NCBI GenBank assembly: GCA_019912545.1
Contig: JAIOIK010000021.1
Coordinates: forward strand, 1 to 64,000
Direction of reading: 5' to 3'
DNA from: Ignavibacteria bacterium
Lineage (GTDB): Bacteria; Bacteroidota; Ignavibacteria; Tepidaquicellales; OLB5
DNA: 64,000 bases
Positions within the stretch are counted from its first letter, which is position 1. Each line of letters opens with the position of its first letter. Shown here piece by piece: positions 26,994 to 39,862 of the stretch. Made by a program: the position numbers and the translations under genes. The notes under the pieces are model-generated. The model worked only from the letters and a program-made list of their open reading frames with translations. It ran no database searches and was not told the origin of the DNA.

Positions 26994-27122
26994 TGTAAAG
27001 ACGCTCCTTGCTTATAGCTAGATTAAATTAATTGATATTACGGTATTTATTGAATATGTTTGAGTACTAATTTAATTCATTTATGAAATTATAACAAGGA
27101 AAATCAGTTTTTTGAATAATTT

Positions 27123-27440
27123 GTAACTCGAATCGCTGATTCGAATGGCGAATCTTTGATTCGCCGAAGGAGGGATTGATTGTATATTCGGGTTTAAAGT
27201 AAATCTTACGAAACTTCGTTTCGTACTCCGATCAGGCGATCGGAGTTACAGTTGGTTTGTTGTAGCTCGAATCGCTGATTCGAGTGGCGAATCTTTGATT
27301 CGCCGAAGAAGGTTTTGATTTTATATTCGGGCTTAAAGTAAATCTTACGAAACTTCGTTTCGTACTCCGATCAGGCGATCGGAGTTACAATAATCCTGTA
27401 ACTCGAATCGCTGATTCGAGTGGCGAATCTTTGATTCGCG
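27123..27440. repeat. Left REP array, five units (A-B-A-B-A)
   Basis: Type A begins GTAACTCGAATCGCTGATTC (hairpin CTCGAATC/GATTCGAG) then GGCGAATC/GATTCGCC. Type B ends GATCGGAGTTAC and contains ACGAAAC/GTTTCGT and CTCCGATC/GATCGGAG hairpins; its reverse complement also starts with GTAACTC. A at 27123, B at 27206, A at 27262, B at 27346, A at 27398. Confidence 0.85.
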
Positions 27441-27467
27441 AGGGTGGATTCAAACTAGTTCAGATTA

Positions 27468-28130
27468 ATGGAAGATATTTTCTATAAAAGAGACTTACCG
27501 CATTATATTCCGGAGAATGGTATAATATTTATTACTTTCCGGCTTACTAATTCCTTGCCAAGACCGATCGTTGATGAATTGAAACGTGAAAAAGTTGAAC
27601 TCGAAAAAAAAGTTCATATAGAGAAAAGCAAAGAGAAACAGAGAGTACTAAAACTAAAGCTGCTGAAAAAGTATTTTGCGAAATTTGATCAATATCTTGA
27701 TAATAATAATAAAGGCTCATTATGGCTGAAGAATGACAGGGTTGCTAAAATTGTATATGATTCCATATTGTTTAGAAATATGAAGCTGTATAAACTATTT
27801 GCTTTTACGATAATGCCGAACCATGTACATATGCTTGTTGGTATTGGACCAGATTATTTGAATGTAAATAAAGAGCCAAGTAAAAAAGAAACTAAGTATT
27901 ATGCTTCTGATGTATTGCGGGATCTTAAGAAATATACAGCGAAAGAATGTAACAAGATATTGTATCGAAAAGGACAATTTTGGCAAAGAGAAAGTTATGA
28001 CCACTTAGTACGAGATCAAAGAGAGTTTGGTAACATTGTAAATTACATATTACAAAATCCGGTGAAAGCGGGATTAGTCAAAAGGGCAGAAGACTGGAAA
28101 TGGTGTTATGTTGATGTATCTTTGTTTTGA
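27468..28130 (+). CDS. REP-associated tyrosine transposase (RAYT, Y1/HUH)
   Basis: 220 residues, normal length for the family. The HUH motif M-P-N-H-V-H-M-L puts the metal-binding pair at H119 and H121. The candidate nucleophile is Y193 in N-Y-I-L-Q-N-P-V-K-A-G-L (Y177 in RESYDHL is a second candidate). The first 100 residues are helix-rich and lysine-rich for DNA binding. Such enzymes cut and rejoin single-stranded REP hairpins. Its position amid REP units is the canonical arrangement. Confidence 0.92.
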   Translation: MEDIFYKRDLPHYIPENGIIFITFRLTNSLPRPIVDELKREKVELEKKVHIEKSKEKQRVLKLKLLKKYFAKFDQYLDNNNKGSLWLKNDRVAKIVYDSILFRNMKLYKLFAFTIMPNHVHMLVGIGPDYLNVNKEPSKKETKYYASDVLRDLKKYTAKECNKILYRKGQFWQRESYDHLVRDQREFGNIVNYILQNPVKAGLVKRAEDWKWCYVDVSLF

Positions 28131-28134
28131 TTTT

Positions 28135-28453
28135 TTACGAAACTTCGTTTCGTACTCCGATCAGGCGATCGGAGTTACAATAATCCTGTAACTCGAATCG
28201 CTGATTCGAGTGGCGAATCTTTGATTCGCCGAAGAAGGTTTTGATTTTATATTCGTGCTTAAAGTAAATCTTACGAAACTTCGTTTCGTACTCCGATCAG
28301 GCGATCGGAGTTACAGTTGGTTTGTTGTAGCTCGAATCGCTGATTCGAGTGGCGAATCTTTGATTCGCCGAAGGAGGGATTGATTGTATATTCGGGTTTA
28401 AAGTAAATCTTACGAAACTTCGTTTCGTACTCCGATCAGGCGATCGGAGTTAC
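28135..28453. repeat. Right REP array, five units (B-A-B-A-B)
   Basis: B at 28135, A at 28188, B at 28271, A at 28327, B at 28410. The A-to-B spacers II then I, and B-to-A spacers y then x, appear in reverse order from the left side, while the unit orientation is the same. Apart from a few bases, units are nearly identical to the left ones, so the array was copied recently. Confidence 0.85.
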
Positions 28454-28482
28454 AAAAAGTTAATTAAAAGGAAAATTATCAA

Positions 28483-29469
28483 ATGGCTACAGCATTTATT
28501 ACAGGCGCAACGGGATTCATCGGCTCTCACTTAGTTGATGAACTGCTAAAAAAGGACTACAAAATCAAATGCCTTATACGAAAAAACAGCAGCAAAAAAT
28601 GGCTTGAAGGCAAGCCTGTTGAATACATCGAAGGTGATCTGTTTACCCAGAGTGTGCTTGAAAAAGCCCTGAGCGGCGTTGATTACGTCTATCATGTGGG
28701 AGGAGTAACTTTTGCAAAGAAGAAAGAAGAGTTCTACCGCGGAAATGTTGAAGCTACCAAAAGCCTGCTTGATGCATGTTACAGGTTTAATCCGGGAGTT
28801 AAGAAATTCGTTCACGTTAGCTCACAGGCAGCAGTTGGCCCATCGTTCGACGGCAAGCCAATTGATGAATCAAGAGATTATCATCCCTTAACAACTTATG
28901 GCAGAAGTAAAGTTGAGGCAGAAAAAGCAGTAATAGAGTATTTCGATAAGATCAAATGCACCGTTGTCAGGCCGCCCGCTGTTTACGGACCCAGAGACTA
29001 TGCCATATACGAATACTTCAAATCAATGAACCGCGGCCTGCAGCCGCTCATTGGATTTGATAACAAGCTCATCAGCCTTATTCACGGAGTTGACCTTGTC
29101 CGCGGATTCATCCTAGCGGGGGAGTCAGATATTTCAGCATCAGAAATATATTTCATTGCATCGGAGAAATTCTACAACTGGCGTGATGTTGGCAATATGA
29201 CTCAAAAGCTTTTGGGAAGAAAAACAGTCCGCGTTGTTATTCCGCATTTTGCAGTAAAGACAACAGCATTCTTCTCGCAGGTGTTCGGAGTGTTTTCCTC
29301 AAAACCAATTGTGCTGAATATAGAAAAATCCAGGGAACTTACTCAGGCGTACTGGATATGCTCAATAGAAAAGGCGCAAAGAGAGCTAGGCTTCAAAGAA
29401 AGCTTCACGCTTGAAGAAGGCTTCCGCGATACAATTGACTGGTACAAAAAGGAAGGCTGGCTGAAGTGA
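28483..29469 (+). CDS. NAD(P)-dependent epimerase/dehydratase (CerR-like candidate)
   Basis: 328 residues, extended SDR fold. The nucleotide motif is TGATGFIGSH at residues 8-17. The catalytic Tyr/Lys pair sits in TTYGRSKVEAEKAV (Y and K four residues apart). R-P-P-A-V-Y-G-P is also present. Closest by eye to dihydroflavonol-reductase and ceramide-reductase-like SDRs. With spt on the other side of the REP element it may act in sphingolipid synthesis, as CerR does in Caulobacter, but substrate is not shown. AAGGA precedes the ATG. Its stop overlaps the start of the following gene. Confidence 0.8.
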   Translation: MATAFITGATGFIGSHLVDELLKKDYKIKCLIRKNSSKKWLEGKPVEYIEGDLFTQSVLEKALSGVDYVYHVGGVTFAKKKEEFYRGNVEATKSLLDACYRFNPGVKKFVHVSSQAAVGPSFDGKPIDESRDYHPLTTYGRSKVEAEKAVIEYFDKIKCTVVRPPAVYGPRDYAIYEYFKSMNRGLQPLIGFDNKLISLIHGVDLVRGFILAGESDISASEIYFIASEKFYNWRDVGNMTQKLLGRKTVRVVIPHFAVKTTAFFSQVFGVFSSKPIVLNIEKSRELTQAYWICSIEKAQRELGFKESFTLEEGFRDTIDWYKKEGWLK

Positions 29470-31400
29470 TGTTATCTAAAACTATGGAACAAAATTTGTT
29501 ATTAATTGCTGCAAAAGCTGCTGCTGAGAATGTTAAAAGAAATGAATTCAAAGAATTACATCCATTCAAGGAAGATGATGTTAATGAAGCAGTTAAAGAT
29601 GCACTTGGAAATATTAATCTAAGAAATGAAATCAGAAAATTACTTTACCCCGAAGGAATCATTATAGGAGAAGTTTTCTTTGAAAAGCTCCAGGAATTTT
29701 ATGTTTTATTAGGTTTTCATAGTATTGTAAACGAGCTTATTAGCGAAATATCTATAGATATATTTAAGGGGATTGAAAAAAAAGATGTGGAAAAGTTACT
29801 GAATTTCTTAGTTAATACAAAAAGTAGGTATTTTTGGATTTACCTAAGAACGTTTGTATTTCTCTTTCAAAAATATACTTTAGATTCTAAATTTATCTCT
29901 AAATGGTTTATCGAAATTTGTGAAAAAATGGGCAATGATTTAGCATCCGGAGATTTTTACACTGCCATTGGAAATTATGCATTTAGTTTCCCATTAGAGG
30001 GACTGCAAATACTAAAGTTATATTCAAATGCAAAGATTGAAAAGATTACTCTGCATATTTCAAGCATTATTATGGGAAATGTTAGAGCTAGAATCATCAC
30101 CGATACGAAAGATATTCTCGATTTTGATGAAGTGGAAGAAGATTATCATGAAAATAAAAATGTGGATAAAAGAGCTATATACTATTGCTCTTATTTACAT
30201 ACTTATCATAAAATAGAGCCAAGTATTGATGAATTAGATAGCATATTAAATGAAGCAATTAGAGATGAAGATAAAGTAAAAGAACAGGCATATTTTATTA
30301 TTAACAGATATGTTAATTCTAAAAGAGAGGATAGTAAAATTGTAGATTTTGGATTGAACTGGATTGAGAAAAATATACATTCTAGTAGTTCCGATATGTG
30401 TAAATATAACGCTGTTGATCTACTTAGATGGATAGTTTTTGAGGATAGAAAAGAAAAAAGTATGACTATTTTTCCTAAAATCAACAGAATATTAGAGAAG
30501 ACGTTACCCATACAAATAGATAATGGTGGTACTTGGAGCAATATACAAGACCTATTAAGAGACACACTTGTTATAGATTTAAAGGAGTTTGAAAAAATGA
30601 TTTTAACGATTTCAAATAATAGCAGTAAAGAATTTTTACATTATTTGAAGGATCAACAATTTGACTTTTTGACACATGAATTGGAAAATGTTGACATAAA
30701 GGATTTTATTTTAGGATTAGTTACTTCAAGAAAGAAAAATGAAAGAAGTCTTGGTTTTACGTTATTAAGAGAACTGCACTCGAAATATCCAGACACTGAA
30801 ACTAAAATTAGCATAAATGATGAGCAAGCGCTTCAAATTTCTTTATTAGAAGCAAAGGCAAAATTAATTTTAGGTAAAGAAATTTGTGAGTATCTAATTA
30901 GTATTGAACCGTTTTTTCGTAATAAATCTAAGGCTCTGCAAAAGGATTTTATTAGAGAGATGGTTTTTCAGGCAATAAATTATCCGGGTGAATGCTTAGA
31001 GAAATGGAAAAAAATTGAAAACCCAAGCGAAATATTTAAAGTTGTAATAGAATCTGCAAATTCTTACTTTGAAAAACTGAATAACACAGCAGATTTGTCT
31101 GCCAATAGTTATTGTTTGCCAATTTTCATAAAAGCTGAACAAGAAGTGAAAAGAAAGATGAGCAAAAATATAAGCGAAGGGGCATATGAAAAATCAATAT
31201 TTATGAAATTCATAAAAAAAACTAATGTATTGTATGGAGATAAGTGGAGTGTAAATCACGATAAATCAATTGGTAATCCTACTCAATTCAGCAAATTTTC
31301 ACATTCTTTTGAACTTCCAAGATTAGAGTATTTAGATCCAGAAGGGATAGTATTGAGAAGAATTAAAGCCAAAATAGAATTAAAAAATCTTGTAAAATGA
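29469..31400 (+). CDS. Large helical protein, first gene of an unassigned three-gene operon
   Basis: About 643 residues. The ATG at 29469 overlaps the epimerase stop (TGATG); the GTG three bases earlier is an alternative. It is almost all alpha-helical with many L/I/F and K/E-rich helices, like an ARM/HEAT or TPR solenoid. There are no transmembrane or signal segments and no recognisable catalytic or nucleotide motif. Base composition is more AT-rich than the genes on either side. It overlaps the following CDS by four bases (ATGA). It could be a sensor, scaffold or substrate-binding subunit. I do not recognise a family. Confidence 0.65.
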   Translation: MLSKTMEQNLLLIAAKAAAENVKRNEFKELHPFKEDDVNEAVKDALGNINLRNEIRKLLYPEGIIIGEVFFEKLQEFYVLLGFHSIVNELISEISIDIFKGIEKKDVEKLLNFLVNTKSRYFWIYLRTFVFLFQKYTLDSKFISKWFIEICEKMGNDLASGDFYTAIGNYAFSFPLEGLQILKLYSNAKIEKITLHISSIIMGNVRARIITDTKDILDFDEVEEDYHENKNVDKRAIYYCSYLHTYHKIEPSIDELDSILNEAIRDEDKVKEQAYFIINRYVNSKREDSKIVDFGLNWIEKNIHSSSSDMCKYNAVDLLRWIVFEDRKEKSMTIFPKINRILEKTLPIQIDNGGTWSNIQDLLRDTLVIDLKEFEKMILTISNNSSKEFLHYLKDQQFDFLTHELENVDIKDFILGLVTSRKKNERSLGFTLLRELHSKYPDTETKISINDEQALQISLLEAKAKLILGKEICEYLISIEPFFRNKSKALQKDFIREMVFQAINYPGECLEKWKKIENPSEIFKVVIESANSYFEKLNNTADLSANSYCLPIFIKAEQEVKRKMSKNISEGAYEKSIFMKFIKKTNVLYGDKWSVNHDKSIGNPTQFSKFSHSFELPRLEYLDPEGIVLRRIKAKIELKNLVK

Positions 31401-32083
31401 GTTACCAAATAGACCCTTTTGCAAGCGAAGCAGGATTTAGGTTTTATTTAGAAAAGCTTAAAGAATTTGGTGAGCTAGACTATTTAATCAAATTTTACTT
31501 AGAAAACATTGAAAATAAACGAATTTATCAGCGACCTAGTAAGGGGCCATATGGTGAAAAAGGTAAAGATATTGTTACTATTGAGAACGAAGAAACATTA
31601 GATTATTGCTCATATATTATTAAGTGTGGTACCCTTCAAGATAATCTAGATGGCGAATATGGTATAATAAAACAGATTGATGATTCAATTAACATTGATC
31701 TGGAAGAAAGTATATATAAAAACAGGAAAAGAACAGCTATTGTTGTTTATAATGGTGAGGAAAAGTATAGGGGGGCAATTAACAAGTTTGAAGAAAATAG
31801 GGTTAAAATACAAAGTAAACTAGATCCCAGACTTTTATTAAGAGATATTGAACGTTGGGATATTAGTGTATTAAGTAAAAAACTATTTTCACATATTAGA
31901 AAAATACGCGAGATAAATGAATTGCAAAATAGAATGAACAGATTATTTGACTCTGAAAGCATTGTTAAAGAATTAAGGGAAGAAACTCAAAAAATTGAAC
32001 TAGGTACAGCACCAACTGATAAACTAATAGACAGATTAATAAATAGAATTAAGAATAGTGAAAGTCAATGGGGAAAATTTTAA
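31397..32083 (+). CDS. Candidate PD-(D/E)XK nuclease-like protein, second gene of the operon
   Basis: 228 residues. Residues 48-76 read G-P-Y-G-E-K-G-K-D-I-V then a strand ending Y-I-I-K-C-G. The Asp at 58 and Lys at 76 fall where the D and ExK of restriction-type nucleases lie, but the usual Glu/Gln before the Lys is replaced by Ile. A later strand IVVYNGEEKYRGAINKF (114-131) and ERWDIS (152-157) match the third protein of the operon. The last 60 residues look coiled-coil. A DNA-targeting role is inferred; catalytic competence is doubtful from the motif. Confidence 0.6.
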   Translation: MSYQIDPFASEAGFRFYLEKLKEFGELDYLIKFYLENIENKRIYQRPSKGPYGEKGKDIVTIENEETLDYCSYIIKCGTLQDNLDGEYGIIKQIDDSINIDLEESIYKNRKRTAIVVYNGEEKYRGAINKFEENRVKIQSKLDPRLLLRDIERWDISVLSKKLFSHIRKIREINELQNRMNRLFDSESIVKELREETQKIELGTAPTDKLIDRLINRIKNSESQWGKF

Positions 32084-32086
32084 TTA

Positions 32087-33916
32087 ATGGTAAACAATAA
32101 AACTATTTTCTTGACAAAATATTTAGTTTCTCTAACTGAGAGAACTAGATCTGAAAAAAGAGGAAGAAAAACAGGTTTAGATTGGGTAATCTATAATCTT
32201 GGCATTCAAAAAGGTTGGACCCCTCATCGCTTACCTTTTCATAGATCAAGTTACGATAAAGAAGTAAAATCTAAAACAGAAGCGGAATTTGGTATTGATA
32301 TTTCGTTTATCAATGAAAGTTGTAATGAACTAATAATCTTTGTTTTAAAAGACGAACCATTGAAGAACGATACTTGGAATAAAAACAACTTTGATTCGGA
32401 TTTACGAATGGCGTCAAAACCAGATATTACAAACTTAAATGTTTCATCCATAAAAATTATCTTAGCATACAATAAGGATGAAGATAGAAACGGTATCATT
32501 TTATTTGAGAATTTCGTTAAAAATACGCCTGATATTGTGGAAAATAAGAAGAACATATCTTTTGAAAGATGGAATTTATCGAAAATTGTAAGTGAAGTTG
32601 AAACTGACTTGTTTAATCCTGATTTACTCCCTCAGCATCTATCTGGTGTTTTTAGTTATTTGTGTTCACAAGTTGGTGATTTCAAGTATGCATCTGATGA
32701 ATGGGTTAATCAATTAATCCCCAATTGGAAACGATTTTTGAAGTTGCTTTTTGAAGAAAAGATTGAAGAAAAAAGAATAGCATTGATTCCCGTAATTCTT
32801 TTCATCATTAAGGATTTTCAGAAAGACACAGCAGAATCGAAAATTGGGTGGCTGGAATTAATAGAAATAGCAATGTTGTATCTGTGGGCTAATTTTAGAA
32901 CAATAGAAAACACAGACCTAAAAAATCAAATCATACTAATATGGTATACACTATATATTACTGAACTAGAATTATATATAAGTAAGAACGAAATTGCATT
33001 AACGACAGAACATGGTATCCATTCTCAAAAATTTCAAGTTGGTAATCTTGCTGCTTTAAACGACTCTGTATTAATTTTTGATATAATAGGTAAAATAGGA
33101 ATTTTAACTTCTCAACTAAACGCACTCATTGACCTAGTCGAAAACCAAGTTAAGGTTGAGTTATCAAAGAAAATATATCATTATTCGGAATTGATAATTA
33201 AGTGTCTAAAAAGTAATCCTGCGATTTTTAGACCATTAATTGATTTGCATCATATTCAATTGTATTTCATCTGGATTATTTTATATCAAACCAAAAAATA
33301 CGATGAAATTATTGATTGGTTCTATGGTCAAGAAACTTATTTAATGATTAGAAGAATAGGAAATTCTACAGTACCTTTCATTGAAGGAAGAAACAGATTA
33401 GATTTGGTCGCTGAATATGCAGCAACTAATGAAAAACCATATGAATTCATTGATGACGCTTCTTGCTTAATAGAAATGTTATTAGAGTTGACTTTTTCTA
33501 TCGAAGAAACAGAAAGAAAAAAGATTCAAACAAAACTCTTTAAGCATATTGTTTTAGGTTTAGGAGATGATGATAAGAATATACTTAAAGTTGAGGAGAT
33601 TATCGATTTGCAAAGTTGGGAACCTCCAGAGGATTGGGATCAACGTATTTTCTTAGAAAATGTCACAGATGGCATATCAATTAGTACAAATAATTTTAAT
33701 GTAGACATAAATAATATAGATGATATAGAGAGTCAATTGAAAACTTTTGTAAATAATGTGGTAAAAAAATTCCCTTCAAAAATTCGATTTGACATTCCTA
33801 TGAGCGTGTATTTTTTAGCATGTATTAAAAATAACTCTCCTTTACCTCCAATATTTTGGCGAAGTACTGTTTTTCCAGAATTTTACAAAGATTTAGAAAA
33901 AAAACCACAAAATTAG
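32087..33916 (+). CDS. Large protein with N-terminal nuclease-like domain, third gene of the operon
   Basis: 609 residues, three bases after the preceding stop. Residues 60-90 read K-T-E-A-E-F-G-I-D-I-S-F then L-I-I-F-V-L-K-D-E, so E67, D71 and K88 resemble a PD-(D/E)XK set, with Val in the ExK position (E90 follows the Lys). Then IILAYNKDEDRNGIILF (125-141) and ERWNLSKIV align with the second protein. The rest (about 175-609) is helical. Its basic N-terminus (RSEKRGRKTGLDW) might contact DNA. AT-rich, like its partners. Confidence 0.6.
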   Translation: MVNNKTIFLTKYLVSLTERTRSEKRGRKTGLDWVIYNLGIQKGWTPHRLPFHRSSYDKEVKSKTEAEFGIDISFINESCNELIIFVLKDEPLKNDTWNKNNFDSDLRMASKPDITNLNVSSIKIILAYNKDEDRNGIILFENFVKNTPDIVENKKNISFERWNLSKIVSEVETDLFNPDLLPQHLSGVFSYLCSQVGDFKYASDEWVNQLIPNWKRFLKLLFEEKIEEKRIALIPVILFIIKDFQKDTAESKIGWLELIEIAMLYLWANFRTIENTDLKNQIILIWYTLYITELELYISKNEIALTTEHGIHSQKFQVGNLAALNDSVLIFDIIGKIGILTSQLNALIDLVENQVKVELSKKIYHYSELIIKCLKSNPAIFRPLIDLHHIQLYFIWIILYQTKKYDEIIDWFYGQETYLMIRRIGNSTVPFIEGRNRLDLVAEYAATNEKPYEFIDDASCLIEMLLELTFSIEETERKKIQTKLFKHIVLGLGDDDKNILKVEEIIDLQSWEPPEDWDQRIFLENVTDGISISTNNFNVDINNIDDIESQLKTFVNNVVKKFPSKIRFDIPMSVYFLACIKNNSPLPPIFWRSTVFPEFYKDLEKKPQN

Positions 33917-34030
33917 TTCAGGCGAACGGATGTTAGGTAGATCGGCTTACTTTCCGGTAAAATACTAAATTACACGAATTTGACTCTTCTGATGTTTTAT
34001 TGATTTATCTCATCCCACCACCCTTTTCAA

Positions 34031-38097: not shown

Positions 38098-39555
38098 TTA
38101 TTTGCTAAGCAATAAAGCGGTTTTTTCGAGAAGCCAGGCTTTTTCATGTATAAAATTGTTTTTTTTCAATATATATAATTTCTCTTTTAGCTTATTATTC
38201 CTGTTTTTTTCTTTTGCTTTCAGAAGGACAGAGTAGAATTTAAGAAATCCTTTATAATTTTCAGTAAATACGGATGGAACAGATTTCTCAGCTTTTATCA
38301 GGAGGTGCCTGGTTGAATCTATTGCCAGTACAGCTTCCTCAAATAATGAGAGTTCAAAATATATTTTCAGCAAAATTACCTTTATCTGTAACTGTGTATC
38401 TGGGTTTTTGGTTTTAATATTTTTTAACCGCGAAAATGATTTAGCAAAATTTCCCTCTGAAAAATCTATTTTAGCCAGGCATATTTGAGTTACTATTTCT
38501 TTAATATTATCCAGAAGAAATTTTTCATTGCTGAAAATAAATGATCTAGCCCACGCTATATCATTAGCACTCAGCGAGGAGTTGACTATTGCGATAAACA
38601 TATACTCTTCTATATATGTTTTGAACGGATATACGATAATATTCTTTGAAACAGCGTTTTTGTACAGAACAAATTGTTCACGTTTAAAATCATGTTTATC
38701 TGTTATAACCTGCTTCGCAAGGTATCTTTGCAGTATATTATGAAGACTATAGAGCTCAGGGTAACTTAGTTTTTGAGCCTCTTTCAAAAATATTAATTTT
38801 AAAGTGTTGTAATATTTTCTATCTCCTTTTGTAAGCAGAAGTATCTCGTTGGTGTAAAGATTAATAAGAGGAGTATCAGAAAATTCTTCGGGATGAGACT
38901 CAAGTGTTTTTAGTATTTGTTCTATAAAACTTAGGTCAATATTTATCTTCCTGTAATATTTTATATATTGTACTTTCCTTAACATTGTCAAACTGGCAAT
39001 AAGGTAAAACCGTGTAAAGTTATCTATTATCAGCTTAAGTGATCCTTCTTCCGGCGTTTTGTTTTTCCTTTTTGTGCCTAGGCTCCAGTTATAAAAAAAG
39101 TATTTATTATCTTCCAGCATTGCCTTATCGTAAAAATAATTCATGGAATTTCCAGGTGTTTCAGAAAGAATTACATCAGCTTTCTTTATTACTGCACGGA
39201 ATTCTTTTTCAAGTTTTCTGAGATTCAGTTCATTAAGAAGGAAAATTTTCTGTGAAAGCGGTCTGTTCCTTATATTTATTACGGTAAGATATTCTTCAAG
39301 TAATTGTGTTAATTTTGAAATTAAAACCCTCATAAAGCCATCATTATACTCTCTTGATTCAAAGATCTTTTTATAAATGAATTTGCGTCCAGTGGCGGTG
39401 AGTTCAAAATCAGGCCATTGCTTCTTAAGATATTCATAAATCTTAACTATGCTTTGATTTTTGTTATAGAATGGAGATCGTATAAACAGAGTGAATTCGT
39501 TAATTTCTGCCTGAGAAAATTTCCTGAGAATACTTATTACATTACTATTATGCAT
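38098..39555 (-). CDS. Conserved hypothetical helical protein, 485 aa (paralog of 7349-8818)
   Basis: The ATG at 39555 (MHNSNVISILRKFSQAEINE) aligns with the N-terminus of the 7349 paralog. Shared points: FSxxExxxFxxFIxSP near residue 12-26 and a helical solenoid-like rest. No signal or catalytic motif. Shares no neighbour with its paralog. Its upstream gap is shared with the divergent 39863 gene. I do not know its function. Confidence 0.7.
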   Translation of the reverse strand: MHNSNVISILRKFSQAEINEFTLFIRSPFYNKNQSIVKIYEYLKKQWPDFELTATGRKFIYKKIFESREYNDGFMRVLISKLTQLLEEYLTVINIRNRPLSQKIFLLNELNLRKLEKEFRAVIKKADVILSETPGNSMNYFYDKAMLEDNKYFFYNWSLGTKRKNKTPEEGSLKLIIDNFTRFYLIASLTMLRKVQYIKYYRKINIDLSFIEQILKTLESHPEEFSDTPLINLYTNEILLLTKGDRKYYNTLKLIFLKEAQKLSYPELYSLHNILQRYLAKQVITDKHDFKREQFVLYKNAVSKNIIVYPFKTYIEEYMFIAIVNSSLSANDIAWARSFIFSNEKFLLDNIKEIVTQICLAKIDFSEGNFAKSFSRLKNIKTKNPDTQLQIKVILLKIYFELSLFEEAVLAIDSTRHLLIKAEKSVPSVFTENYKGFLKFYSVLLKAKEKNRNNKLKEKLYILKKNNFIHEKAWLLEKTALLLSK

Positions 39556-39862
39556 AATGTAATTTATAAACAAATAATTGATATTAAAAAACATAAATAC
39601 AGCTTAAAAGGCTGAATAACCCTAATTTGCAACATTACACTTAATTTTCCCCCCATCTTCTACTTGATAACAATTTGAGTAAACAATCCGTAATTATTTG
39701 CAAAAAAAACAGCATAATAACTGAGTATTAAGGTATCAGTTCTGCAAATATCGAACTGTTTTCCCAATAACATTTGTTAATATGAATCTTTGTAAAGGGT
39801 AAAGAAGAAGTTTAAATTTGAATAAATAATTAATAAGAGTAATATCAAAATAAGGAGTTAAT

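Follow-up and report, generated by a model that had tools for sequence, protein, structure and literature searches.

A probable Olokun-family defence operon with an additional nuclease-like subunit in an Ignavibacteria bacterium

Introduction

Three consecutive genes in the genome of an Ignavibacteria bacterium (assembly GCA_019912545.1, contig JAIOIK010000021.1) raise the question of what kind of module they encode. A preliminary description of the first 64,000 nucleotides of this contig (the whole stretch that was analysed, hereafter the window), made from the sequence alone, had proposed a candidate undescribed system for defence or the control of mobile DNA. Here we argue that the trio, which occupies a small insertion, is probably a divergent form of the Olokun anti-phage operon to which one subunit has been added; that it belongs to the Olokun family of defence operons, taken by itself, is highly probable. 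Olokun has been cited as a system from an earlier screen (PMC10121019) and its mechanism is given as unknown in a 2026 review (PMC12926258). Our literature search found no papers naming OloA or OloB in the Olokun sense.

Results

A compact AT-rich operon within an insertion

The operon consists of three genes:

29469–31400, + strand: gene 1, OloA homologue; 643 amino acids from the ATG, with a PADLOC OloA match.
31397–32083, + strand: gene 2, an extra subunit absent from canonical Olokun; 228 amino acids, no family match, with homologues between oloA and oloB in two other genomes (G020 and G566).
32087–33916, + strand: gene 3, OloB homologue; 609 amino acids, identified by PADLOC and hhalign.

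Genes 1 and 2 overlap by 4 bases (ATGA) and genes 2 and 3 are spaced by 3 bases; a GTG at 29466 is also possible as the start of gene 1, giving 644 amino acids. The GC contents of genes 1, 2 and 3 (28.5, 29.3 and 29.4%) are the three lowest among the 42 open reading frames of at least 150 amino acids, a ranking made within the window only, for which the mean GC is 37.8%. Third-position GC is 20–23% in the trio versus 28–48% in the remaining reading frames of this set. The earlier observation of three abutting genes that are more AT-rich than their neighbours was thereby confirmed, coordinates included. The next lowest GC (30%) belongs to a 498-amino-acid reading frame at 38098–39594 on the − strand; G011, another genome of the genus, has a distant homologue (23% identity) close to this position.

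The trio stands alone among housekeeping genes, and no other defence genes adjoin it in the window. Upstream lies an NAD-dependent epimerase gene (28483–29469), the stop codon of which overlaps the start of gene 1 (TGATG), and this gene is preceded by an IS200-like/RAYT gene (27468–28130); genes for ribosomal protein L25, peptidyl-tRNA hydrolase and a membrane pyrophosphatase follow downstream. The trio had been placed between a RAYT element and a housekeeping block, and both flanks are indeed present, but the epimerase separates the operon from the RAYT gene. Comparison with the nearest relative found (G006; L25 98% identical) delimited the insertion:

29468–34008, no strand: inserted segment, defined by blastn against G006 and by reading of the junctions.

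DNA similarity to this relative breaks off within the stop codon of the epimerase gene (29467) and restarts at 34009, so that about 130 bp, a clean empty site, occupy the slot in which the window has 4.5 kb. In five further genus members (six examined in all) the slot also lacks the trio. The interval between the epimerase and L25 (29467–34112 in the window) is variable within the genus, being empty in four genomes (G004, G006, G009 and G012) and occupied by a TonB-dependent receptor and a 434-amino-acid protein in G002 and by a SAM methyltransferase in G011. Neither gene 2 nor gene 3 was found in any of 12 other genomes of the genus. Gain by insertion in the lineage of the window is the simplest reading of this pattern. 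No integrase or transposase was seen inside the insert, and a repeat scan around it gave no convincing terminal repeats or attachment site.

The neighbouring RAYT segment (27112–28456), in which the IS200-like gene is flanked by repeated palindromes (TACGAAACTTCGTTTCGTA and TCCGATCAGGCGATCGGA), is missing as a whole from G006, and RAYT homologues occur in the same slot of G002, G009 and G012.

OloA and OloB homologues encoded by genes 1 and 3

Searches of PADLOC matched gene 1 to OloA (PDLC03925; E = 2.4e-22, residues 96–628) and gene 3 to OloB (PDLC03926; E = 1.2e-24, residues 63–594), each match covering most of the model. Because the PADLOC Olokun models are broad, we tested gene 3 independently by using hhalign, in which six gene-3-type proteins aligned over their full length with 11 canonical OloB proteins taken from both genomes and plasmids (99.8%, E = 1.2e-29). 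Pfam, NCBIfam and PHROGs yielded no convincing match for genes 1, 2 or 3. The earlier statement that the genes show no known enzyme signature thus holds for these three libraries but not for the defence library, which recognises genes 1 and 3. The reading of the trio as an undescribed system is not supported, because two of its genes are OloA and OloB homologues and Olokun is already in PADLOC and in the literature.

The breadth of the models is apparent from a differently built gene pair (L018) that they also match and of which the second protein has an LmuA-like C-terminus. Three such pairs (L018, 7669–11662; L020, 7957–11923; L021, 5072–9240) match the OloB model, L018 the OloA model too, and carry a GGxTD...IELKVE motif in addition to an LmuA-like C-terminus. 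It seems that two kinds of system are mixed in the PADLOC Olokun models. Lamassu was considered since the OloB-model matches in these three loci also match LmuA, and was set aside on finding that the window proteins do not.

In canonical Olokun (L015, L016 and L017, and plasmid loci L057, L059, L061 and L063), as in the window, oloA is followed by a tightly coupled oloB, and OloB has an N-terminal PD-(D/E)XK-like domain and a helical remainder; canonical loci also lie in defence-gene neighbourhoods. By contrast, the window operon has an extra gene in between, its OloB is only 16–21% identical to the canonical proteins, and the N-terminal domain of gene 3 has longer loops. The order oloA to oloB on the same strand is kept, with gene 2 interposed; as Olokun is described as having two genes only, we filed the locus as a variant rather than as the canonical form. 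The canonical plasmid loci have a single coupled gene of OloA size upstream of oloB and no middle gene. Closer to the window are four OloAB-like pairs from the same diverged branch (L004, from a Verrucomicrobia MAG; L005; L019, from the same class as the window; and L052). Their OloB proteins are 31–39% identical to gene 3 and share with it the motifs FG(I/V)D and IFVLKDE, but the loci comprise two genes only, without gene 2.

Gene 1, like OloA, is probably a helical (HEAT-like) scaffold. A search for HEAT repeats gave no match in the gene 1 protein of the window, and the relative L016 has a HEAT match above the curated cut-off. The sensor role earlier suggested for gene 1 is a guess, whereas the general description of a helical partner with nuclease-like proteins is supported.

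Gene 2 resembles the N-terminal domain of canonical OloB

Gene 2 had no convincing family match in any of four libraries (PADLOC, Pfam, NCBIfam and PHROGs). Weak matches of residues 159–219 to Cas11a/Csa5 (E = 0.04–0.16) were taken as helical-tail noise. In hhalign, gene 2 aligned with the first approximately 117 residues of canonical OloB, at 94.5% with a profile of 3 canonical sequences and at 95.7% (E = 1e-8) with 11. The score against the 3-sequence profile was 61.3; 100 column shuffles gave at most 27.8, and the controls, a reversed profile and the unrelated OloA, scored about 16. The aligned proteins have in common a helix of the form R-x-Y-L-x-x-L-K-E-x-x-E-L-D, a subsequent GKD or GVD, and a strand ending in x-x-K-x-G. 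Direct comparison of gene 2 with the N-terminus of gene 3 gave a weaker signal (27.9 versus a shuffle maximum of 23.7) in the same register, pairing GKDIV with FGIDI and YIIK with FVLK. Because canonical OloB bridges both profiles, genes 2 and 3 share a layout, which bears out the PD-(D/E)XK-like resemblance first noticed in the sequence. The domains are as follows:

31436–31759, + strand: gene 2 residues 14–121, a putative copy of the PD-(D/E)XK-like domain at the OloB N-terminus, from hhalign, shuffle controls and alignment.
32108–32611, + strand: gene 3 residues 8–175, its own nuclease-like N-terminal domain, from alignment and, at modest confidence, the AlphaFold2 element order.

Judged by sequence, gene 2 is remotely homologous to the PD-(D/E)XK-like domain with which canonical OloB begins, and its probable origin is the duplication of a nuclease-like domain of the OloB type. 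At this level of evidence, a catalytic-type aspartate and a lysine on adjacent strands are present in both gene 2 and the gene 3 N-terminus: D58 and K76 of gene 2 are invariant in the three known copies, which are 39–45% identical, and D71 and K88 of gene 3 are invariant in its family. The likeness to the PD-(D/E)XK superfamily extends to the succession of a helix bearing conserved acids, a G-x-D and a strand with x-x-K at its end, and, at modest confidence, to the predicted element order of gene 3, which is compatible with that fold. The trio domains differ from the superfamily in having no conserved acid two residues before the lysine and no Pfam or significant fold match. That position is occupied by I in the gene 2 protein, by V in that of gene 3 and mostly by S, T, F, A or I in canonical OloB, with E in L017 only; because the acid is not conserved, catalysis is uncertain. 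We therefore describe the domain as PD-(D/E)XK-like and not as a confirmed superfamily member.

Structure prediction, for which the input alignments were shallow, gave an AlphaFold2 model of gene 3 of modest confidence (mean pLDDT 55.6), in which the N-terminal element order is compatible with a restriction-endonuclease-like fold and the remainder is predicted to be helical. A fold search of the PDB with this model returned no match at E < 0.001; the best hits (E = 7e-3), helical proteins with low TM-scores, were set aside. The single-sequence model of gene 2 (pLDDT 38.6) was too poor for use, and a sequence search of the PDB found nothing meaningful.

The trio recurs near defence genes

The complete trio was found in the window and in two other genomes. 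One of them, G020, belongs to a different family of the same order and has a gene 2 that is 45% identical to that of the window; in the other, G566, which comes from a further family of the class, the identity is 39%. The trio is kept in three families of one class, the kind of conservation that the preliminary description had named as support. Across 391 genomes of the class, gene 3 occurs in four and gene 2 in three, the latter being exactly the trio genomes, and gene 2 lies between oloA and oloB in 3/3 occurrences. Chance co-occurrence would be about 4 in 10 million for independent draws, a figure that is indicative only, given shared ancestry. The trio clade is well supported in the gene 1 tree (0.998) and weakly in that of gene 3 (0.36); a single origin is likely. 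Searches by tblastn with genes 1–3 against plasmids and with genes 2 and 3 against phages, and two scans of viral contigs, found nothing.

In G020, the trio follows the end of a type I restriction enzyme and a PifA-like KAP NTPase and precedes PDC-S26, and in G566 a type IIG enzyme-methylase is nearby. Among the two-gene relatives, L005 neighbours a DpdE/DrmD-like helicase and a DrmMI-like methylase, and L052 an Mrr-type nuclease, an LmuA-like metallo-hydrolase and an IetS-like subtilase; the surroundings of canonical plasmid loci include TIR and SIR2 genes, a NACHT NTPase and a DEAD helicase. The preliminary description had named proximity to defence genes as what would speak for a defence module, and these neighbourhoods, together with the Olokun homology, do so.

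On a Tolypothrix plasmid (L056, 1808–2895), a canonical oloB is immediately preceded by two ISAs1-family transposase genes, in the place at which an adjoining oloA would be expected. In L017 (6631–12089), the canonical OloAB pair lies between an RlaP-like nucleotidyltransferase and a second nucleotidyltransferase-like reading frame.

Discussion

That the operon is a housekeeping or mobile-element module with no part in defence is very improbable. Its surroundings are housekeeping genes and the start of gene 1 is fused to the epimerase stop, yet the slot lacks the trio in all six genus members examined, the operon is rare in the class, the insert contains no integrase or transposase, and relatives adjoin defence genes. 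Also improbable, although less so, is that the operon is a defence system in its own right, linked to Olokun by remote common descent alone and with another mode of action: the low identity of the OloB-type proteins to canonical members, the added gene and the match of the PADLOC models to a differently built pair are all compatible with this. On the other side, gene 3 matches canonical OloB over its full length in a profile comparison that is independent of PADLOC, and gene order, tight coupling and the OloA match of gene 1 are the same as in Olokun.

Within an Olokun-family operon, gene 2 could instead be a regulatory or decoy subunit, a catalytically dead nuclease-like domain that sits in the OloA site or covers OloB as long as there is no infection; the operon would then function as ordinary Olokun does, with an extra safety control. 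We regard this as unlikely but as the strongest of the three alternatives. The missing acid before the lysine and the ability of canonical systems to manage without gene 2 fit a decoy; the invariance of D58 and K76 in such diverged copies suggests a kept active site, and gene 3 lacks the same acid too.

Under the preferred reading, a divergent Olokun operon with an added subunit, the helical OloA scaffold would hold two PD-(D/E)XK-like modules, one within OloB and the other being gene 2. Infection would activate the complex, which would then cut or seize nucleic acid, presumably that of the invader; gene 2 would contribute another active site, or act as a dimer partner or as a control subunit. 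Action on nucleic acid through the nuclease-like domains is the likeliest mode of action, although one that we hold tentatively. Slightly better placed, but still short of an even call, is the proposal that the trio represents a distinct three-subunit Olokun class, in which the nuclease-like domain occurs twice, fused in OloB and as a separate protein, and effector or control is split between two related modules on one helical scaffold. The third, additional gene may be dispensable, since canonical Olokun and four sister loci have two genes.

Olokun itself is already known; the middle gene is the new part, absent from the libraries searched, and it suggests that defence finders searching for OloA and OloB alone miss a third subunit. 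For mutagenesis the variant offers the residue pairs D58/K76 (gene 2) and D71/K88 (gene 3), and it also provides a small protein for purification. The presence of the OloB nuclease-like domain a second time, as a small protein of its own, points to this domain as functionally central.
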